Shown here piece after piece: positions 6,268 to 63,827 of a stretch of DNA of 64,000 bases (positions within the stretch are counted from its first letter, which is position 1; each line of letters begins with the position of its first letter). Position numbers and translations under genes: made by a program. The notes beneath the pieces were generated by a model. It searched no databases. It saw only the letters and a program-made list of their open reading frames with translations, and was not told the DNA's origin. The stretch comes from an uncultured Clostridia bacterium (lineage in GTDB: Bacteria > Bacillota > Clostridia > Christensenellales > Borkfalkiaceae): positions 1-64,000 of the forward strand of contig CANQET010000001.1 of NCBI GenBank assembly GCA_947595585.1, in the 5' to 3' direction.

Positions 6268-6502
6268 AACTGCGGATAAGCGGCGCAATACTTTGTACGG
6301 CGCGCTACGCGCTTGTGCCGCCGAAATGAGCAAATCGTTTTCATGTTGCTTGTTCTCGGCGTTCGAACTGCGCTTTCCTACTTCGCCTAACGGCTCGTGC
6401 CGCGCTTAGAGAATTAGAAGTGCGCGCGGGGCGGTCACGTACGCACAAGTACGCTCCCGTCGGAAATGCTCGTTCTCCTTGTCTTGCTTGCTTCTCCGCA
6501 GT
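6268..6502 (+). repeat. Repeat D copy 1 (MITE-like, 235 bp)
   Basis: Bounded by the 9-base inverted ends AACTGCGGA and TCCGCAGTT. The interior (GATAAGCGGCGCAATACT, GGCTCGTGCCGCGCTTAGAG, GTGCGCGCGGGGCGGTC) recurs at 11789-11953 and, reversed, at 23499-23713. No ORF of note inside. Confidence 0.75.
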
Positions 6503-6610
6503 TTAACGGTACCCGTTGTCGCTTATCACGAGCGAAAGGCCTACCCCCATCGGGGGGAGGCTCCGCCGTAGGCGGTGGTGGGGGGCAAGGGAGACGACGA
6601 AGCCTATCAG

Positions 6611-6679
6611 TACGTCATTCCGAGGCGTTAGCCGAGGAATCTCGACTTTGTGATTTCTCACTACGTTCGAAATGACGTA
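6611..6679 (+). repeat. Repeat B copy 1 (palindromic, about 70 bp)
   Basis: Starts TACGTCATTCCGAGG and ends TTCGAAATGACGTA, so the ends are inverted repeats. Inside, GAGGAATCTC and a degraded GATTTCTCACTACG form the inner arms. The same unit recurs at 12639, 53308, 53542, 62112 and 62400. Confidence 0.75.
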
Positions 6680-6683
6680 TGTA

Positions 6684-6720
6684 CCCCCTCCCGCGGAGGG
6701 GGGTAGGGGGGTGGGCAGAG
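6684..6720 (+). repeat. Repeat A copy (CCCCCTCC hairpin)
   Basis: CCCCCTCCCGCGGAGGGGGG followed by TAGGGGGGTGGGCAG. This G/C-asymmetric hairpin plus tail recurs more than ten times in the window. Confidence 0.7.
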
Positions 6721-6769
6721 AACGATACCCCCATCCCAAGCGATAATCCACACTTATCGAGGTTTTTGT

Positions 6770-7408
6770 ATGAAACTGATCCTACTCGGTGCGCCCGGCG
6801 CAGGCAAGGGCACGCAGGCAACGAAGATCTCCGATCGCTACGGTCTCGTCCATATCTCCACGGGCGACATCTTCCGTGCGAACATCAAAAACGGCACCGA
6901 GATCGGGCTGCTCGCGAAGTCGTATACCGATAAAGGCGAGCTCGTCCCCGACGAAGTGACCTGTGCGATCGTGAAGGACCGTCTCACGTGGGAGGACTGC
7001 AAGAAGGGGTACCTTCTCGACGGCTTCCCCCGCAACCTGTTTCAGGCGGAGGCGCTCGATACGTTTGCCGAGATCGACGGGGTCGTGAACATCAACATCG
7101 ATCACAAGCTCCTCATGGACCGTCTTTGCGGCAGGAGAGTTTGCAAGGAATGCGGCGAGAGCTACCACGTCTCCACCTTAAACGGCGCGACGACGTGCGC
7201 CCGCTGCGGTGGCGAACTCTATCGCAGGAAAGACGATAACCCCGAGACCGTGGGCGCCCGTCTTGCCGTCTACAACGAGCAGACGGCCCCGCTCATCGAC
7301 TACTACACGAAGAAGGGCAACATCCTGAACTTCACGGGCACGGAGGCTCCCGCCGAAGTGCTGTTCGAAGAGATCAAGAAAGTGCTCGACCGTCTTGCGC
7401 AGCAATGA
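6770..7408 (+). CDS. adk: Adenylate kinase (zinc-lid form)
   Basis: 212-residue cytosolic enzyme converting AMP + ATP to 2 ADP. P-loop GAPGAGKGTQ at residues 7-16, the AMP-binding segment STGDIFRANIKNGTEIG, and DGFPRNLFQAEAL. The LID carries two CxxC pairs (VCKECGESY and CARCGGEL), the structural-zinc type common in Gram-positive bacteria. GAGG lies upstream of the ATG at 6770. The stop overlaps the map start (ATGATC), so the two are translationally coupled. Confidence 0.97.
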   Translation: MKLILLGAPGAGKGTQATKISDRYGLVHISTGDIFRANIKNGTEIGLLAKSYTDKGELVPDEVTCAIVKDRLTWEDCKKGYLLDGFPRNLFQAEALDTFAEIDGVVNINIDHKLLMDRLCGRRVCKECGESYHVSTLNGATTCARCGGELYRRKDDNPETVGARLAVYNEQTAPLIDYYTKKGNILNFTGTEAPAEVLFEEIKKVLDRLAQQ

Positions 7409-11730: not shown

Positions 11731-11732
11731 GG

Positions 11733-11761
11733 AAAAAACCGCACATGAGGTGCGGTTTTTT
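11733..11761 (+). terminator. Intrinsic terminator of the alpha operon
   Basis: AAAAAACCGCAC / GTGCGGTTTTTT stem with loop ATGAG, starting 2 bases after the rplQ stop. The T run forms the 3' arm. Confidence 0.92.
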
Positions 11762-11788
11762 CATGCTTGTTTGGACTTCGTAAGAGCG

Positions 11789-11953
11789 AACTGCGGATAA
11801 GCGGCGCAATACTGTGTCGAACTGCGCTTTCCTACTTCGCCTACGGCTCGTGCCGCGCTTAGAGAATTAGAAGTGCGCGCGGGGCGGTCGTGTACACAAG
11901 TACACTCCCGTCGGAAATGCTCGTTCTCCTCGTTCTGCTTGCTTCTCCGCAGT
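11789..11953 (+). repeat. Repeat D copy 2 (shorter)
   Basis: Same inverted ends as copy 1 (AACTGCGGA, TCCGCAGTT) and the same flank GCGAACTGCGGATAAGCGG, but about 70 bases of the left interior are missing. This shows internal deletion with the ends retained. Confidence 0.75.
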
Positions 11954-12306
11954 TTAACGGGTACCCGTTTTCGCTCATGATGGGCAAGACGGTGCTCGAC
12001 CATGTCATTCCGAGGCGTAGCCGAGGAATCTCATTCTAATAACGCCATGTTGAGCTTGTCGCCCCGCGCTCCTCGTTCTGCTTGCTTCTCCGCAGTTTGA
12101 CGGTACCCGTTTTCGTTCCTCCAAAGCGACCTCATTCCGAGCCCCGTTAGGGGCGAGAGAATCTTAAGATACACTCGCTACGCTACTTCGCCGAACGGCT
12201 CGTGCCGTGCTTCGATAAACAATAGAAGCCCCGCACGGGGCGGTATGAGGGTTGGACTTCGTATTGGCCTCGCGCGACACCCCTCTGCGGCTTATTTCAA
12301 GCGCCA

Positions 12307-12426
12307 CCCCCTCCATTGGGAAACAGAAGACCACCACTCCTCCATTGGAGAACAGAATGCATACCCCCTCCATTGGAGAACAGATCACATACCCCCTCCA
12401 TTGGAGGGGGGTAGGGGGGTGGGCAG
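12307..12426 (+). repeat. Repeat A tandem array, four units
   Basis: CTCCATTGG starts at 12311, 12340, 12368 and 12396, a period of 28-29 bases. The unit is roughly ACCCCCTCCATTGGAGAACA plus GATCACAT. The last unit ends with the full hairpin CCTCCATTGGAGG and the TAGGGGGGTGGGCAG tail. Confidence 0.8.
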
Positions 12427-12638
12427 GTGACGACGGGGCATATTCGGAGCGCAAGGCCTACCCCCATCGGGGTCGCAAAGCGCAATTCTCGCGGAAAGCA
12501 CAGTGCGCTTTTCGCGGCGCTTTGCGGTGAGTGAGCGCATCGGAAGGCGCGAACGGTGACCGAACGCGGGGCTCTACCCGCGTGAGACGGCTCCGCGTAG
12601 CGGTGGTGGGGGGCAAGGGAGACGACGGGGCCTATCAG

Positions 12639-12710
12639 TACGTCATTCCGACGACCGTAGGGAGGAGGAATCTCGTCTTTGAGATTTCTCACTACGTTCG
12701 AAATGACGTA
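12639..12710 (+). repeat. Repeat B copy 2
   Basis: TACGTCATTCCGACGACCGT ... TTCGAAATGACGTA with inner GAATCTC GTCTTT GAGATTTCTC hairpin; the best-preserved palindrome of this family (72 bp). Confidence 0.8.
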
Positions 12711-12711
12711 G

Positions 12712-12803
12712 CCCTCCTCTATTGGAAAACAGACCACCACCCCCTCCATTGGAGAACAGACCACATACCCCCTCCATCGGAGGGGGGTAGGGGGGTGGGC
12801 AGA
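12712..12803 (+). repeat. Repeat A tandem array, three units
   Basis: CTCTATTGG at 12717, CTCCATTGG at 12744 and CTCCATCGG at 12772 (period 27-28), ending in GGAGGGGGGTAGGGGGGTGG. It directly abuts repeat B. Confidence 0.75.
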
Positions 12804-12828
12804 AGACGACGAAGCGTATCCCGAGCGT

Positions 12829-12937
12829 CCCTTGGCTCCCATTGTAGGGGAGCTGTCGCGGCGTAAGACGCGGCTGAGGGGTTCGAAACCCTATCCCCTG
12901 CTACGCAGGTACTTCCCCTACGAGGGGAAGCAAGGGG
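12829..12937 (+). repeat. Repeat C copy 1 (about 109 bp)
   Basis: CCCTTGGCTCCC, then GGGGAGCTGTCGCGGCGTAA, CGGCTGAGGGGTTCGAAACC, CTATCCCCTGCTACGCAGGT and ACTTCCCCTACGAGGGGAAG. The same unit occurs at 53406 and 63574, and reversed at 23291. Confidence 0.75.
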
Positions 12938-13060
12938 TAAACTTCGTACAGGCTTCCCCCGAAGTGGCAACGAGGGGTCGGACTACGCGGGTATTTCCCG
13001 AAAAAGTGCAACGAGGGGTCGGACTTCGCACCCCTCGTCTTTCTTTATGCCCACGCCCAA

Positions 13061-13201
13061 ACATATGCACAAAGGGGCATGTGCAAAACATGCGGCGGGG
13101 GGCATATGCGAAAAAACCCCGCCGAGTGCCCTAAGCGACATATGCGGCATACGGCACCCGTCGCACATATGTTGCGCCCTGCATGCGGTCCGCATATGCA
13201 C
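13061..13201. repeat. Cluster of CATATG/GCATGC-type palindromes
   Basis: ACATATGCAC (13061), GCATGTGC (about 13078), ACATGCGG (about 13088), GCATATGCG (13102), CATATGCGG (13139), ACATATGT (13165), GCATGCGG (13181) and CCGCATATGCAC (13190) fall within 141 bases, just upstream of the M18 peptidase promoter. Function unknown. Confidence 0.6.
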
Positions 13202-22977: not shown

Positions 22978-23290
22978 ACGATACAGGTACCCCGTCAAAC
23001 GTCATTTCGCCCCGACCGCAGCTTCTATTTGTTCTACTAAGGTCGGCACGAGCCGTAGGCGAAGTTACCAAGTAGAGAAATCTCAAGTAGAATTAAGACT
23101 GCGGCGATTCTTCGACAAGCTCAGAATGACGTTATTAGAACGAGATTCCTCCTCCCTACGGTCGTCGGAATGACGTACTGATGAGCAAATACGAAGTCCG
23201 CAACCCCTCCGTGGTTCATCTCAAGTAATACCCCCTCCGTGGGAGGGGGACCAAGGGGGTGGGCGGCGACAAGGCAAATACGAAGTCCGT

Positions 23291-23402
23291 CCCCTTGCTG
23301 CCCCTTTAGGGGAAGTACCTGCGTCAGCAGGGGATAGGGTTCCCAAAACCCCTCAGCCGCGTCTTACGCCGCGACAGCTCCCCTACGAGGGGAGCCAAGG
23401 GG
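23291..23402 (-). repeat. Repeat C copy 2, reversed
   Basis: CCCCTTTAGGGGAAGTACCT, GCAGGGGATAGGGTT and ACGCCGCGACAGCTCCCCTA are the reverse complement of copy 1. Confidence 0.75.
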
Positions 23403-23498
23403 TCGCTCTGAATACGCCCCGTCGGTCTCCTGCCCACCCCCCTACCCCCCTCCGCGGGAGGGGGTAGCGCACAGGATGAGCGACAACGGGTACCGTCA

Positions 23499-23713
23499 AA
23501 CTGCAAAGTTGCAAGTAAGACAAGCAATAGCGAGGCTTTTCGCAGGGAGTGTACTAAATCGTACACGACCACCCCGCGCGCATTTCTAATTCTCTAAGCG
23601 CGGCACGAGCCCCCAAGGGCGAAGTAGTAAAACGCAGCATGACGCAGTATTACGCAGCAAATTTGCAGTTCGTAAGTTCGAAGCGAGTAGTATTGCGCCG
23701 CTTATCCGCAGTT
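23499..23713 (-). repeat. Repeat D copy 3, reversed
   Basis: Right end TCCGCAGTT intact; left end degraded to AACTGCAAA. The interior holds GCGCGCATTTCTAATTCTCT and AAGCGCGGCACGAG. Ends 40 bases before ackA. Confidence 0.7.
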
Positions 23714-48161: not shown

Positions 48162-48300
48162 TATGAACGCGTTCGGGCAGCAGAAGAAGGCGGCGGGTTC
48201 GCCCCGCGCGAAGCTTCTGATTGTGATACCAAGCGCGGCACAAGCCCCATTGGGGGGCGAAGTATTCCCGGGGCGGGAAATCGGGAAAAGTTGCAAAGCG
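48162..48300. other. Non-coding gap with a repeat D fragment
   Basis: Contains AAGCGCGGCACAAGCCCC and GGGGCGAAGTA-like pieces (about 48231-48265) that match the interior of repeat D. No gene seen. Confidence 0.5.
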
Positions 48301-53235: not shown

Positions 53236-53307
53236 AGCATACAGGGGTAGCCCTTATGCGACGAAAGGACGTGGGGCGACGGGACGGACTGCGTAGGGGC
53301 ACATCAG

Positions 53308-53379
53308 TACGTCATTCCGACGACCGTAGGGAGGAGGAATCTCAAGGACGAGATTTCTCACTACGTTCGAAATGACGTA
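53308..53379 (+). repeat. Repeat B copy 3
   Basis: TACGTCATTCCGACGACCGT to TTCGAAATGACGTA, inner arms GAATCTC AAGGAC GAGATTTCTC. Confidence 0.78.
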
Positions 53380-53405
53380 ATGGGCGAGGGCGCAAATCAT
53401 GTGCG

Positions 53406-53517
53406 CCCCTCGGCTCCCCTTGCAGGGGAGCTGTCGCGGCGTAAGACGCGGCTGAGGGGTTTTTGAAACCCTATCCCCTGCTACGCAGGTACTTCCCCTA
53501 AAAGGGGAAGCAAGCGG
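53406..53517 (+). repeat. Repeat C copy 3
   Basis: CGGCTCCCCTTGCAGGGGAG to CTTCCCCTAAAAGGGGAAG, nearly the same as copy 1. Confidence 0.75.
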
Positions 53518-53541
53518 ATGGACTTCGTAGGGGCACATCAG

Positions 53542-53613
53542 TACGTCATTCCGACGACCGTAGGGAGGAGGAATCTCGACTTTGAGATTTCTCACTAACG
53601 TTCAAAATGACGT
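53542..53613 (+). repeat. Repeat B copy 4
   Basis: Same unit with inner loop GACTTT and a one-base change in the right arm (TTCAAAATGACGT). Confidence 0.75.
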
Positions 53614-53908
53614 GCGCCATGCATGGGCTTTTCTGCCGCCCCACCCCCTTAATCCCCCTCCCACGGAGGGGGTAGTGGACTGCGTAGGGGCACATCTTGT
53701 GCAACACCCCCCTCCATTGGAGGGGGTAGGGGGGTGGGCAGATGACCGATGGGGGTAGGGCTTTCGGACTTCGTATCTTCCCCGTCGTGCATCATGCAAA
53801 AAGCCCCGGGGGGGCTCGGGGCAAAGGGCGTAAAGATGAAAACAAGGGCGCAAAACGGGCAATAAAATTGCAGGGGTAGGCCGAAAACGAGGGGGCCTAC
53901 CTACTTTT

Positions 53909-61957: not shown

Positions 61958-62111
61958 CTATGCTCTTTTTCCCAAACGCGGGGACACGTGGTAGTTTATT
62001 CCGCGCGTACCCCCTCCGTGGGGCAATGTGCCCAGACACGGTGCATCTTATGCGATACCCCCTCCATTGGAGGGGGGTAGGGGGGTGGGCGGAAGACGAC
62101 GGGGCGCATCA

Positions 62112-62238
62112 GTACGTCATTCCGCCCTGTGCGAGGCTTCTATTGTTTATCGAAGCACGGCACGAGCGCGTAGCGCGAAGTAGGCGTGAGCCGAGGAATC
62201 TCGTTCTTTGAGATTTCTCACTACGTTCGAAATGACGT
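62112..62238 (+). repeat. Repeat B copy 5 with inserted repeat D material
   Basis: Ends TACGTCATTCCG and TTCGAAATGACGT as in other copies, but about 55 bases longer. The extra part (TCTATTGTTTATCGAAGCAC, GGCACGAGCGCGTAGCG) resembles the D-interior fragment at 12195-12225. Confidence 0.7.
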
Positions 62239-62399
62239 GCTCCATTCATGGGCCTTGTCGTGCTCCATTCTTTGCCCCCCATCCGTCACGGCTATGCCGT
62301 GCCACCCTCCCCCCGATGGGGGTAGGGCTTTCGGACTTCGTAGTTGCCCCGTCGCCGCCCCACCCCCTTGATCCCCCTCCCACGGAGGGGGTAGAGCGA

Positions 62400-62470
62400 T
62401 ACGTCATTCCGAGGCGTGAGCCGAGGAATCTCGTTCTTTGAGATTTCTCACTACGTTCGAAATGACGTAG
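62400..62470 (+). repeat. Repeat B copy 6
   Basis: TACGTCATTCCGAGGCGTGA to TTCGAAATGACGTA, inner arms GAATCTC GTTCTTT GAGATTTCTC. Confidence 0.78.
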
Positions 62471-62538
62471 ACACCCCCTCCATTGGAGAACAGCCCCCCC
62501 CTCCATTGGAGGGGGGTAGGGGGCGATAAAACGAATGG

Positions 62539-63336
62539 TCAGAGGGATTTGAAGGCGTCGGTCAGAATGAAGAGCTCCTTCTCGTAATTCATGCCGTACT
62601 TCTTATCGGGCACCTCGGTCTGCGTACGCAGGATCGAGCGGTAACAAAATTCGATGCACAGCGTAAGGGCGTCCTTGAGGGGCATCCCCCCGCCGATGCA
62701 GCCCGCAAAGGCCGAGGCGAACACGTCGCCCGCGCCATGGAAGGAGCCCTCCACCTTCCGAAGGGGGATCTTCTTATTTTCCCCGTCGTAGTAGTAGAGG
62801 AAATAGCCTTCCGCCGTATCCGCCCCCGTAATGATGGGATGCGGGCAGATCTTTGCAAGCGCGGAGAGCGCCTTTTCGGGGTCCTTTTCGCCTGTGAGAA
62901 GGAAGCTCTCGGTGTCGTTGGGAAGGATGTAATCCGCGAGGCCGCAGAGGGTACGCATTTGCGCGGCGAAGGCTTCGTCGAACCCCTTATAAAATTTGAA
63001 ATTATCGCCGAGGACGGGGTCGACGACGAAGATCCCGTCGGGCTTCAAGAAGCGCTGCTTCACCGATTTCACGAATTCGATCTGACTGCGGCTGCCGAGA
63101 TACCCGCTGCAGATGACGTCGTATTTGAGGGGAAGGGTCTCCCAATGGGCGCAGATCTTCTCCATTTCATCGTCGAGCGGGAGGAAGGTGTAGCCCGTAA
63201 ATCCGCCCGTGTGCGTGGAGAGGAGAGCAGTGGGGAGGATGTCGACCGTCGCGCCGCACGCAGAGAGCACGGGGAGGGCGACGGTGAGGGAACACTTCCC
63301 CGCACAGGAGATATCGTTGATGGCAAGGACACGCAT
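62539..63336 (-). CDS. pdxY: Pyridoxal/pyridoxamine kinase
   Basis: 265-residue ribokinase-fold enzyme that phosphorylates B6 vitamers to supply PLP. VLAINDISCAGKCSLTVALP, LPTALLSTHTGGFTGYTF, FVVDPVLGDNF and the late SFHGAGDVFASAFAGCIGGG (anion hole and catalytic Asp) are typical. The start at 63336 (MRVLAINDISC) has GAGGT upstream; the track's 31 extra residues cross the promoter. Tryptophanase in this window is a PLP enzyme, but no direct link is implied. Confidence 0.92.
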   Translation of the reverse strand: MRVLAINDISCAGKCSLTVALPVLSACGATVDILPTALLSTHTGGFTGYTFLPLDDEMEKICAHWETLPLKYDVICSGYLGSRSQIEFVKSVKQRFLKPDGIFVVDPVLGDNFKFYKGFDEAFAAQMRTLCGLADYILPNDTESFLLTGEKDPEKALSALAKICPHPIITGADTAEGYFLYYYDGENKKIPLRKVEGSFHGAGDVFASAFAGCIGGGMPLKDALTLCIEFCYRSILRTQTEVPDKKYGMNYEKELFILTDAFKSL

Positions 63337-63429: not shown

Positions 63430-63795
63430 TTGGCGTGAGTCGACGACGGTAGAAAGGGCGGACGAAGAGGCAAGACGCGACGACGGACGACGGGGCCAAT
63501 TATGCGCGACCCCCCCTCCATTGGAGGGGGGTAGGGGGGTGGGCAGGAGACGATGGGGCGTATCTCGAGCGAGCCCTTGGCTCCCCTTGCAGGGGAGCTG
63601 GCACGGCGTAGCCGTGACTGAGGGGTTTTGAAACCCTATCCCCCGCTGACGCGGGTACTTCCCCTATGAGGGGAAGCGAGGGGACGGACTTCGTACTTGC
63701 TTTTTTGCCGCCCCACCCCCTTGATCCCCCTCCCACGGAGGGGGTAGTGCTCGGGATAAACCCCGTAGGGGGTAGGGCTTTCGGACTGCGGAATT
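63430..63795. repeat. Repeat block before the second zinc-ribbon gene
   Basis: Gene-free: A copy (63509-63546), repeat C (63574-63683), reversed A (63707-63750), and GGGGGTAGGGCTTTCGGACT. The arrangement C then reversed A matches 53406-53675 and, in part, 23291-23470. Confidence 0.78.
63574..63683 (+). repeat. Repeat C copy 4
   Basis: CCCTTGGCTCCCCTTGCAGG to CTTCCCCTATGAGGGGAAG, with a changed centre (GGCACGGCGTAGCCGTGACT). Confidence 0.75.
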
Positions 63796-63798
63796 TTC

Positions 63799-63827
63799 TT
63801 GACAGCGGGGGCGGGATGCAGTATAAT
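63799..63827 (+). promoter_or_regulatory. Consensus promoter of the second zinc-ribbon gene
   Basis: TTGACA (63799-63804), 17 bases, TATAAT (63822-63827), followed by AAGGAG. Confidence 0.9.

Follow-up and report, generated by a model that had tools for sequence, protein, structure and literature searches.

Repeat D, a palindromic sequence with three copies in the 64,000-nucleotide stretch of DNA analysed here (the window), is rather probably a short, non-coding and non-autonomous mobile DNA hairpin element that behaves like the YPAL element of Yersinia. In the mechanism that we propose, a candidate trans-acting protein would recognise the folded DNA (a cruciform or a single-stranded hairpin) and not the terminal sequence, and new copies would be inserted at the 3' ends of genes or into or beside terminator-like dyads, as has been proposed for YPAL.

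An earlier note on the window, made from the sequence alone, described D as MITE-like, named three copies and several fragments, and placed it next to core genes. The repeat is real, and the three copies, at 6268-6503 (+), 11789-11954 (+) and 23499-23670 (-), adjoin secY/adk, rplQ and ackA as that note had it. Copy 1 is 236 bp long, with AACTGCGGA at 6268-6276 and again, inverted, at 6495-6503; the same nonamer is also located at 11789 and, in inverted form, at 11946, 12089, 23705 and 49092. The family is established by long matches and not by the number of these nonamers, whose count within the window is not above chance. The full outer stem is 14 bp long and contains a single, conserved T.C mismatch (AACTGCGGAtAAGC / GCTTcTCCGCAGTT). 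Copy 3 carries the outer stem AACTGCAAATTTGC, differing from the AACTGCGGA type. The parts of D and the features around them are the following.

6268..6503, plus strand: D copy 1, full form (core, arm A and arm B), beginning 6 nt past the secY stop codon and aligned with five other full copies
6297..6363, plus strand: arm A of copy 1, an optional hairpin of 67 bp, defined by size classes and by precise presence/absence at an orthologous site
6380..6431, plus strand: arm B of copy 1, an optional hairpin of 52 bp, defined by size classes and by its occurrence alone in other repeats
6504..6522, plus strand: right flank of copy 1, TAACGGTACCCGTTGTCGC, the first part of which (TAACGGTAACC-like) recurs behind most copies in the genus
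11732..11762, plus strand: intrinsic terminator of rplQ, upstream of copy 2
11773..11787, plus strand: linker GGACTTCGTAAGAGC between the terminator and D copy 2, found before many copies and other modules
11789..11954, plus strand: D copy 2 (core and arm B), 58 nt past the rplQ stop codon
12069..12098, plus strand: truncated D 3' end (CTCC..GCTTCTCCGCAGTTT) fused to another repeat module
12186..12248, plus strand: hairpin of arm-B type that lies within another repeat and is no fragment of D
23499..23670, minus strand: D copy 3 (core and arm B), outer stem AACTGCAAATTTGC
23671..23713, minus strand: extra outer 5' layer (GAACTGCGGATAAGC...CTTAC) around copy 3, bearing AACTGCGGA at 23705-23713
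48201..48264, minus strand: stand-alone arm-B-type hairpin (the fragment noted earlier at about 48231)

Among the fragments proposed earlier, the one near 12060 is a true D 3' end (12069-12098), but those at 12180 and 48231 are arm-B hairpins, lying in or outside other repeats.

In the window's species the D unit consists of a 117-bp imperfect hairpin core and two optional hairpin arms, A (67 bp) and B (about 52 bp), which always sit at constant internal positions of the core. Every two-ended copy in about 440 kb was considered, together with single loci of the window's own genome, and the copies form four size classes of about 117, 166-172, 184-186 and 236-238 bp, which are the combinations of core, arm A and arm B. 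In the nearest species, at about 85% nucleotide identity, the sole large difference of the orthologous copy is a clean 67-bp gap at arm A. Discrete size classes and precise arm junctions rule out random interior deletion, and the earlier description of conserved ends around an interior that suffers deletions has to be replaced by one of two precise hairpin arms; genuine interior deletions do occur where a few old sites in relatives have decayed. Some copies carry additional outer layers (for example window 23671-23713), the linker GGACTTCGTANNNRC often precedes D and a RACGGTWACC-like sequence often comes after it.

The two arms differ in their distribution. Arm A was inside D in all eight of its occurrences, whereas arm B gave 47 matches in 440 kb, only 14 of which were scored within D, the remainder being within other hairpin repeats. 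Arm B is a hairpin repeat in its own right, nesting in D and in other hairpins. Its sites in the window (TTCGCC..GGCTCGTGCCG..GGGGCGA) are 11834-11884, 12186-12248, 23023-23090 (-), 48201-48264 (-) and 62117-62180 (-), and it nests at corresponding positions of several unrelated palindromic repeats, namely the ACGTCATTCCG family, the CCTCATTCCG family and D.

Copies of D sit within long mosaics of other palindromic modules. Intergenic mosaics of such repeats occupy positions 6504-6770, 11955-13130, 23000-23500, 53236-53900, 61990-62540 and 63440-63800 of the window; their families include TACCCCCTCC.., GGCTCCCCT..AGGGGAGC, ACGTCATTCCG.. and GCCGCCCCACCCCC.., and a recurring linker, GGACTTCGTANNNGC, joins them. 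Tandem D copies, 5-12 nt apart, were observed in several genera (loci L203 2704-2944, L204 2786-3035, L210 3100-3342, L220 2833-3306 and L114 1370-1617), and inverted D pairs lie between the same two genes in genomes G009 and G091 (L130, L147).

The window's genome (1.69 Mb in 30 contigs, 96.7% complete) belongs to a genus of many species within a large order of gut bacteria. The genome-wide search that the earlier note called for, run by BLAST with a 241-bp query, returned 77 matches spread over most of the 30 contigs; six are full-length, at 89-100% identity, and D is not confined to one region. A covariance model of the D core gave at least 42 matches in this genome; it located the core, with 1 to at least 42 copies each, in 73 of the 86 genomes of the genus. 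Across the order, 108 of 297 genomes have it, and these fall into 38 of 125 genera. The length of the core is constant within a few bases across the order, with a unit of 117-122 bp. All in all, a dispersed, short, non-coding repeat with inverted ends, consistent boundaries and presence/absence variation among relatives, as claimed before, is supported. A known RNA family was excluded, D having no match at the gathering score or at a relaxed E-value among the covariance models of Rfam 15. Plasmid or phage carriage was likewise rejected after searches of PLSDB and INPHARED gave no D match; the core motif is present in two IMG/VR contigs, one with a weak covariance-model match (E 1e-4) and the other with none. 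One 3.1-kb contig of G032 (C162, CANRDK010000162.1; L031 / L096), which was placed in the bin of another species, shares 97.9% identity with contig C9 of the window's genome and is therefore probably a misbinned contig of the window's species.

D is placed with respect to genes in a characteristic manner. Gene positions were taken from a simple codon-usage gene caller (our own script, not a validated annotation), and the sample comprised the best match per genome and a few dense stretches and is not a random draw. On this basis, the gene on the 5' side of D is co-directional for 42 of 47 copies in the genus and 26 of 29 in the order; within the window's genome the bias is weak (18 of 25, P=0.04). 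Among the co-directional cases, the D 5' end overlaps the stop codon or is no more than 15 nt away from it in 29 of 42 (genus) and 21 of 26 (order), and 11 more genus copies start 38-71 nt past the stop codon, after a terminator such as that at 11732-11762. The stop codon even forms part of D in several copies (as TAA at positions 10-12 or as its first bases). On the 3' side the median gap to the next gene is about 250 nt in relatives, against 589 nt in the window's genome. This is the arrangement of a YPAL-like element, in the same direction as the gene and just past stop codons or at terminators. A recurrent neighbour gene was dismissed, as the genes upstream are unrelated housekeeping genes: secY, rplQ, hrcA, argG, queA, degV, rpoD, an SMC-family gene and prs.

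The stems of D remain complementary as their sequences diverge, which is visible as covariation. In the 67 copies of the genus alignment, 96.4% of cells are paired and 24 of 35 pairs show compensatory double changes; order-level copies give 93.7% and 28 of 35, and both percentages are biased upward because the alignments were fitted to the model. The double-change cells of the genus number 357 against 94.7 in shuffles, none of 500 shuffles reaches the observed value, and sliding the partners abolishes the signal. Throughout the order, pairing is absent from the internal loops and from the T.C mismatch at position 10. Most copies in the window's genome have identical 14-bp ends; among copies, species and genera, the outer stem differs and complementarity alone is conserved. 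The variants, each with its own complement, can be seen by eye (AACTGCGGA, AAACGCGTA, CTCGTCCCA, GGCCGCAGA, AACCGCATA and others).

The outer stem may also run into the host gene. At the order level the inverted repeat extends past the modelled hairpin into the flanks by a mean of 2.5 bp, compared with 0.5 bp for shuffled flanks (0 of 2000 shuffles). In the hrcA and argG copies the stem extends 14 bp into the gene, covering the stop codon and the last codons, and the sequence behind D at these two loci is therefore an inverted copy of the gene end. Judging from these sequences, a locus-specific outer stem would arise in one of two ways: D inserts into a dyad that was already there, or the gene end is copied by fold-back. 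The hrcA orthologues in which a pre-existing hairpin was sought have 53-55% protein identity, too distant to decide between the two.

Presence and absence at orthologous sites, in comparisons that were all between species, provide information about the turnover of D. Between secY and adk, at least five species have D behind the stop codon and most others lack it, G104 and G075 being a near filled/empty pair; a position common to several species also fits an old or a selected element. A single ancestral insertion at this site was rejected, presence being patchy on the protein tree (six changes on a poorly resolved tree, in which row L084, the same species as L111, was wrongly scored as being without D). 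The L127 locus carries D in G007, G084 and G008 and lacks it in G006, G064, G075 and G095, and a short hairpin remnant is left in G096 and G071. A different dispersed repeat of about 105 bp, noticed at about 1290-1396 of the L127-locus query, has dozens of copies in G006, G007, G064 and G075 of the same genus. The secY-adk copy of the window's genome is 92-93% similar to its best matches among the other copies of that genome and 73-78% similar to D at the same site in other species, a pattern as would be expected of recent spread or conversion. No clear or consistent direct target-site duplication was seen in the between-species comparisons at the two loci: at secY-adk, G104 against G075 reveals none beyond 1-2 nt, and at L127 a version of a roughly 20-nt gene overlap is retained on both sides of D. 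The turnover data show gain, loss and homogenisation, with no dated insertion.

Whether the hairpin acts as DNA or as RNA should be reflected in its mismatches, as structured RNAs tolerate G-U and reject A-C. In D, the G-U and A-C cells stand at 20:15 in the genus and 22:37 in the order, compared with 410 and 15 in the SRP RNA of the same genus, the one RNA used as a yardstick. The ratios differ 20-fold or more (Fisher P 5e-11 for the genus, 5e-28 for the order), P-values that are optimistic because related copies make the cells non-independent. The large excess of G-U over A-C that marks a structured RNA is not found in D. Because G-U is no commoner than A-C, unlike in SRP RNA, the pairing appears to be kept as DNA; the simplest reading of these sequences is that it is maintained in a cruciform or a single-stranded hairpin and not in RNA, or that both strands matter equally. 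The GU:AC comparison is a simple test that separates DNA-acting from RNA-acting hairpins and is applicable to other repeat families.

This pattern weighs on the possibility that D is a functional 3'-UTR RNA element (an mRNA stabiliser, processing site or terminator), kept by the host after certain genes, with the repeats as by-products. On the one hand, such an element would account for the sense orientation and tight spacing to stop codons, the retention of D behind secY in at least five species, the strong covariation, and a predicted RNA fold more stable than that of shuffles (z -3.1). On the other hand, the GU:AC ratio is near 1:1, D is patchy at orthologous sites on the tree, its host genes are unrelated to each other, and it often lies behind an already complete intrinsic terminator. 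We consider this explanation unlikely.

The equal numbers of G.T and A.C mismatches would also fit templated correction, and it is conceivable, but quite unlikely, that there is no transposition at all: D would then represent old hairpins spread by ectopic gene conversion, their arms kept complementary by template switching during replication. Double changes observed at shared sites, homogenisation within genomes, the inverted extension into the gene end and the tandem copies are all compatible with this. However, correction should close the T.C position and the internal loops, which stay unpaired across the order, and new sites with clean flanks require an insertion step.

No protein that would move D was found among three protein families, whose profiles (PF01797, PF00078 and TIGR02249) were searched. 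The Y1 transposase profile PF01797 had no match in the window's genome, the most copy-rich here, with positive controls in 5 of 14, and a REP/REPIN-RAYT system was rejected on this ground. The reverse transcriptase profile PF00078 is absent from the window's genome and from 16 of the 23 genomes searched, several of them D-rich, and a reverse-transcribed element (group II intron, retron or similar) was set aside since the window's genome lacks it. The integron integrase profile TIGR02249 was above cut-off in none of 17 D-bearing genomes, with only weak matches to tyrosine recombinases in general. An attC site was rejected for want of an integrase over the cut-off and because AAC...GTT boxes, present in some D copies, are absent in the CTCGTCCCA, GATCGCG, CCCGCC and GGCCGC types.

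A full-length element with the same ends and a transposase, which the earlier note proposed to look for, was not found in the window's genome (96.7% complete): every 5'-end match has a 3' end no more than about 240 nt away, and the D neighbours are housekeeping genes. A TIR-defined autonomous element was rejected as no 5' end is unpaired. These results bear directly on a classic MITE, that is, a deleted derivative of one insertion sequence, moved by a DDE transposase via sequence-specific terminal inverted repeats. D does resemble one in its size within 50-500 bp, its non-coding nature and its many dispersed copies, and the same 14-bp ends are shared by most copies of the window's genome. Nevertheless, the terminal inverted repeats are conserved only within that genome, complementarity alone being kept elsewhere; some stems extend into the host gene; a longer element bounded by these ends did not turn up, each 5'-end match pairing with a nearby 3' end; and no consistent target duplication was seen. 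A classic MITE is thus improbable. The earlier label of MITE-like holds in the loose sense of ERIC, NEMIS and YPAL (short, non-coding, dispersed) but not in the classic one, given the variable terminal sequence and the modular interior.

A more specific proposal, possible but doubtful, regards D as the site recognised by an undescribed system for recombination or transposition that is present across the order and reads the shape of DNA. Its protein, neither a Y1 transposase nor an integron integrase nor a reverse transcriptase, would bind the folded hairpin with its conserved unpaired bases, join it to the 3' ends of genes and use fold-back synthesis on the host gene to rebuild the outer stem. 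Should there be an enzyme that reads hairpins, D would be its likely substrate, and the differences in copy number among close species offer a route to the mobiliser gene. The spread of the family over 38 genera provides diversity enough to tell conserved base pairs and conserved unpaired bases from the rest.

Among known systems, the preferred reading of D as a mobile hairpin has its closest counterpart in YPAL / RU-2, a 168-bp repeat of Yersinia and Erwinia with direct target duplications of 3-26 bp and targets spanning or adjoining dyad symmetry (PMC2229807). Both are short non-coding hairpin repeats with dyad-type targets, filled and empty sites among relatives, and insertion past stop codons or at terminator-like sequences; the likeness described here is one of behaviour, target duplications are reported for YPAL but are not clear in D, and D has optional nested arms and order-wide conservation. 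De Gregorio et al. in 2006 are said to have placed YPAL after stop codons and at terminators. ERIC / RU-1 and Correia/NEMIS are imperfect intergenic palindromes of about 100-150 bp, NEMIS occurring at 107 or 155 bp via an internal module, and ERIC at the 3' ends of genes can affect mRNA (PMC2229807, PMC10969869). They share with D the intergenic imperfect palindrome and the size classes based on internal modules, but have fixed terminal repeats and TA targets, whereas D has locus-specific outer stems and follows no TA rule. The streptococcal BOX element combines an outer structure with an optional self-folding inner module, boxB being tandemly multiplied (PMC3049150); D is modular in the same way, but neither arm A nor arm B is multiplied in it, and arm B also occurs in unrelated repeats.

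REPINs are hairpins with compensatory changes, thought to be active as single-stranded DNA, which form tandem clusters and need the RAYT (Y1) protein (PMC3116915). Compensatory hairpins and tandem clusters are features of D too, but the required Y1 protein is absent from the window's genome. Integron attC sites are structure-recognised DNA hairpins of about 60-140 bp that lie right after stop codons and have conserved unpaired bases. D likewise is a hairpin past a stop codon with conserved unpaired bases; its copies, however, are dispersed and not in cassette arrays, and the conserved AAC/GTT ends are missing from many of them. Because defining features of each were looked for and found lacking, D should not be classed as a classic MITE, a REPIN or an attC site. 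ERIC, NEMIS, YPAL and the Rickettsia palindromes have been known for decades, and we know of no proven mobiliser for them. In its behaviour D resembles the mobile hairpins of the YPAL/ERIC class; its new features are a core conserved throughout the order, mismatches of the DNA type, an outer stem specific to the locus and optional arms that nest inside the element.
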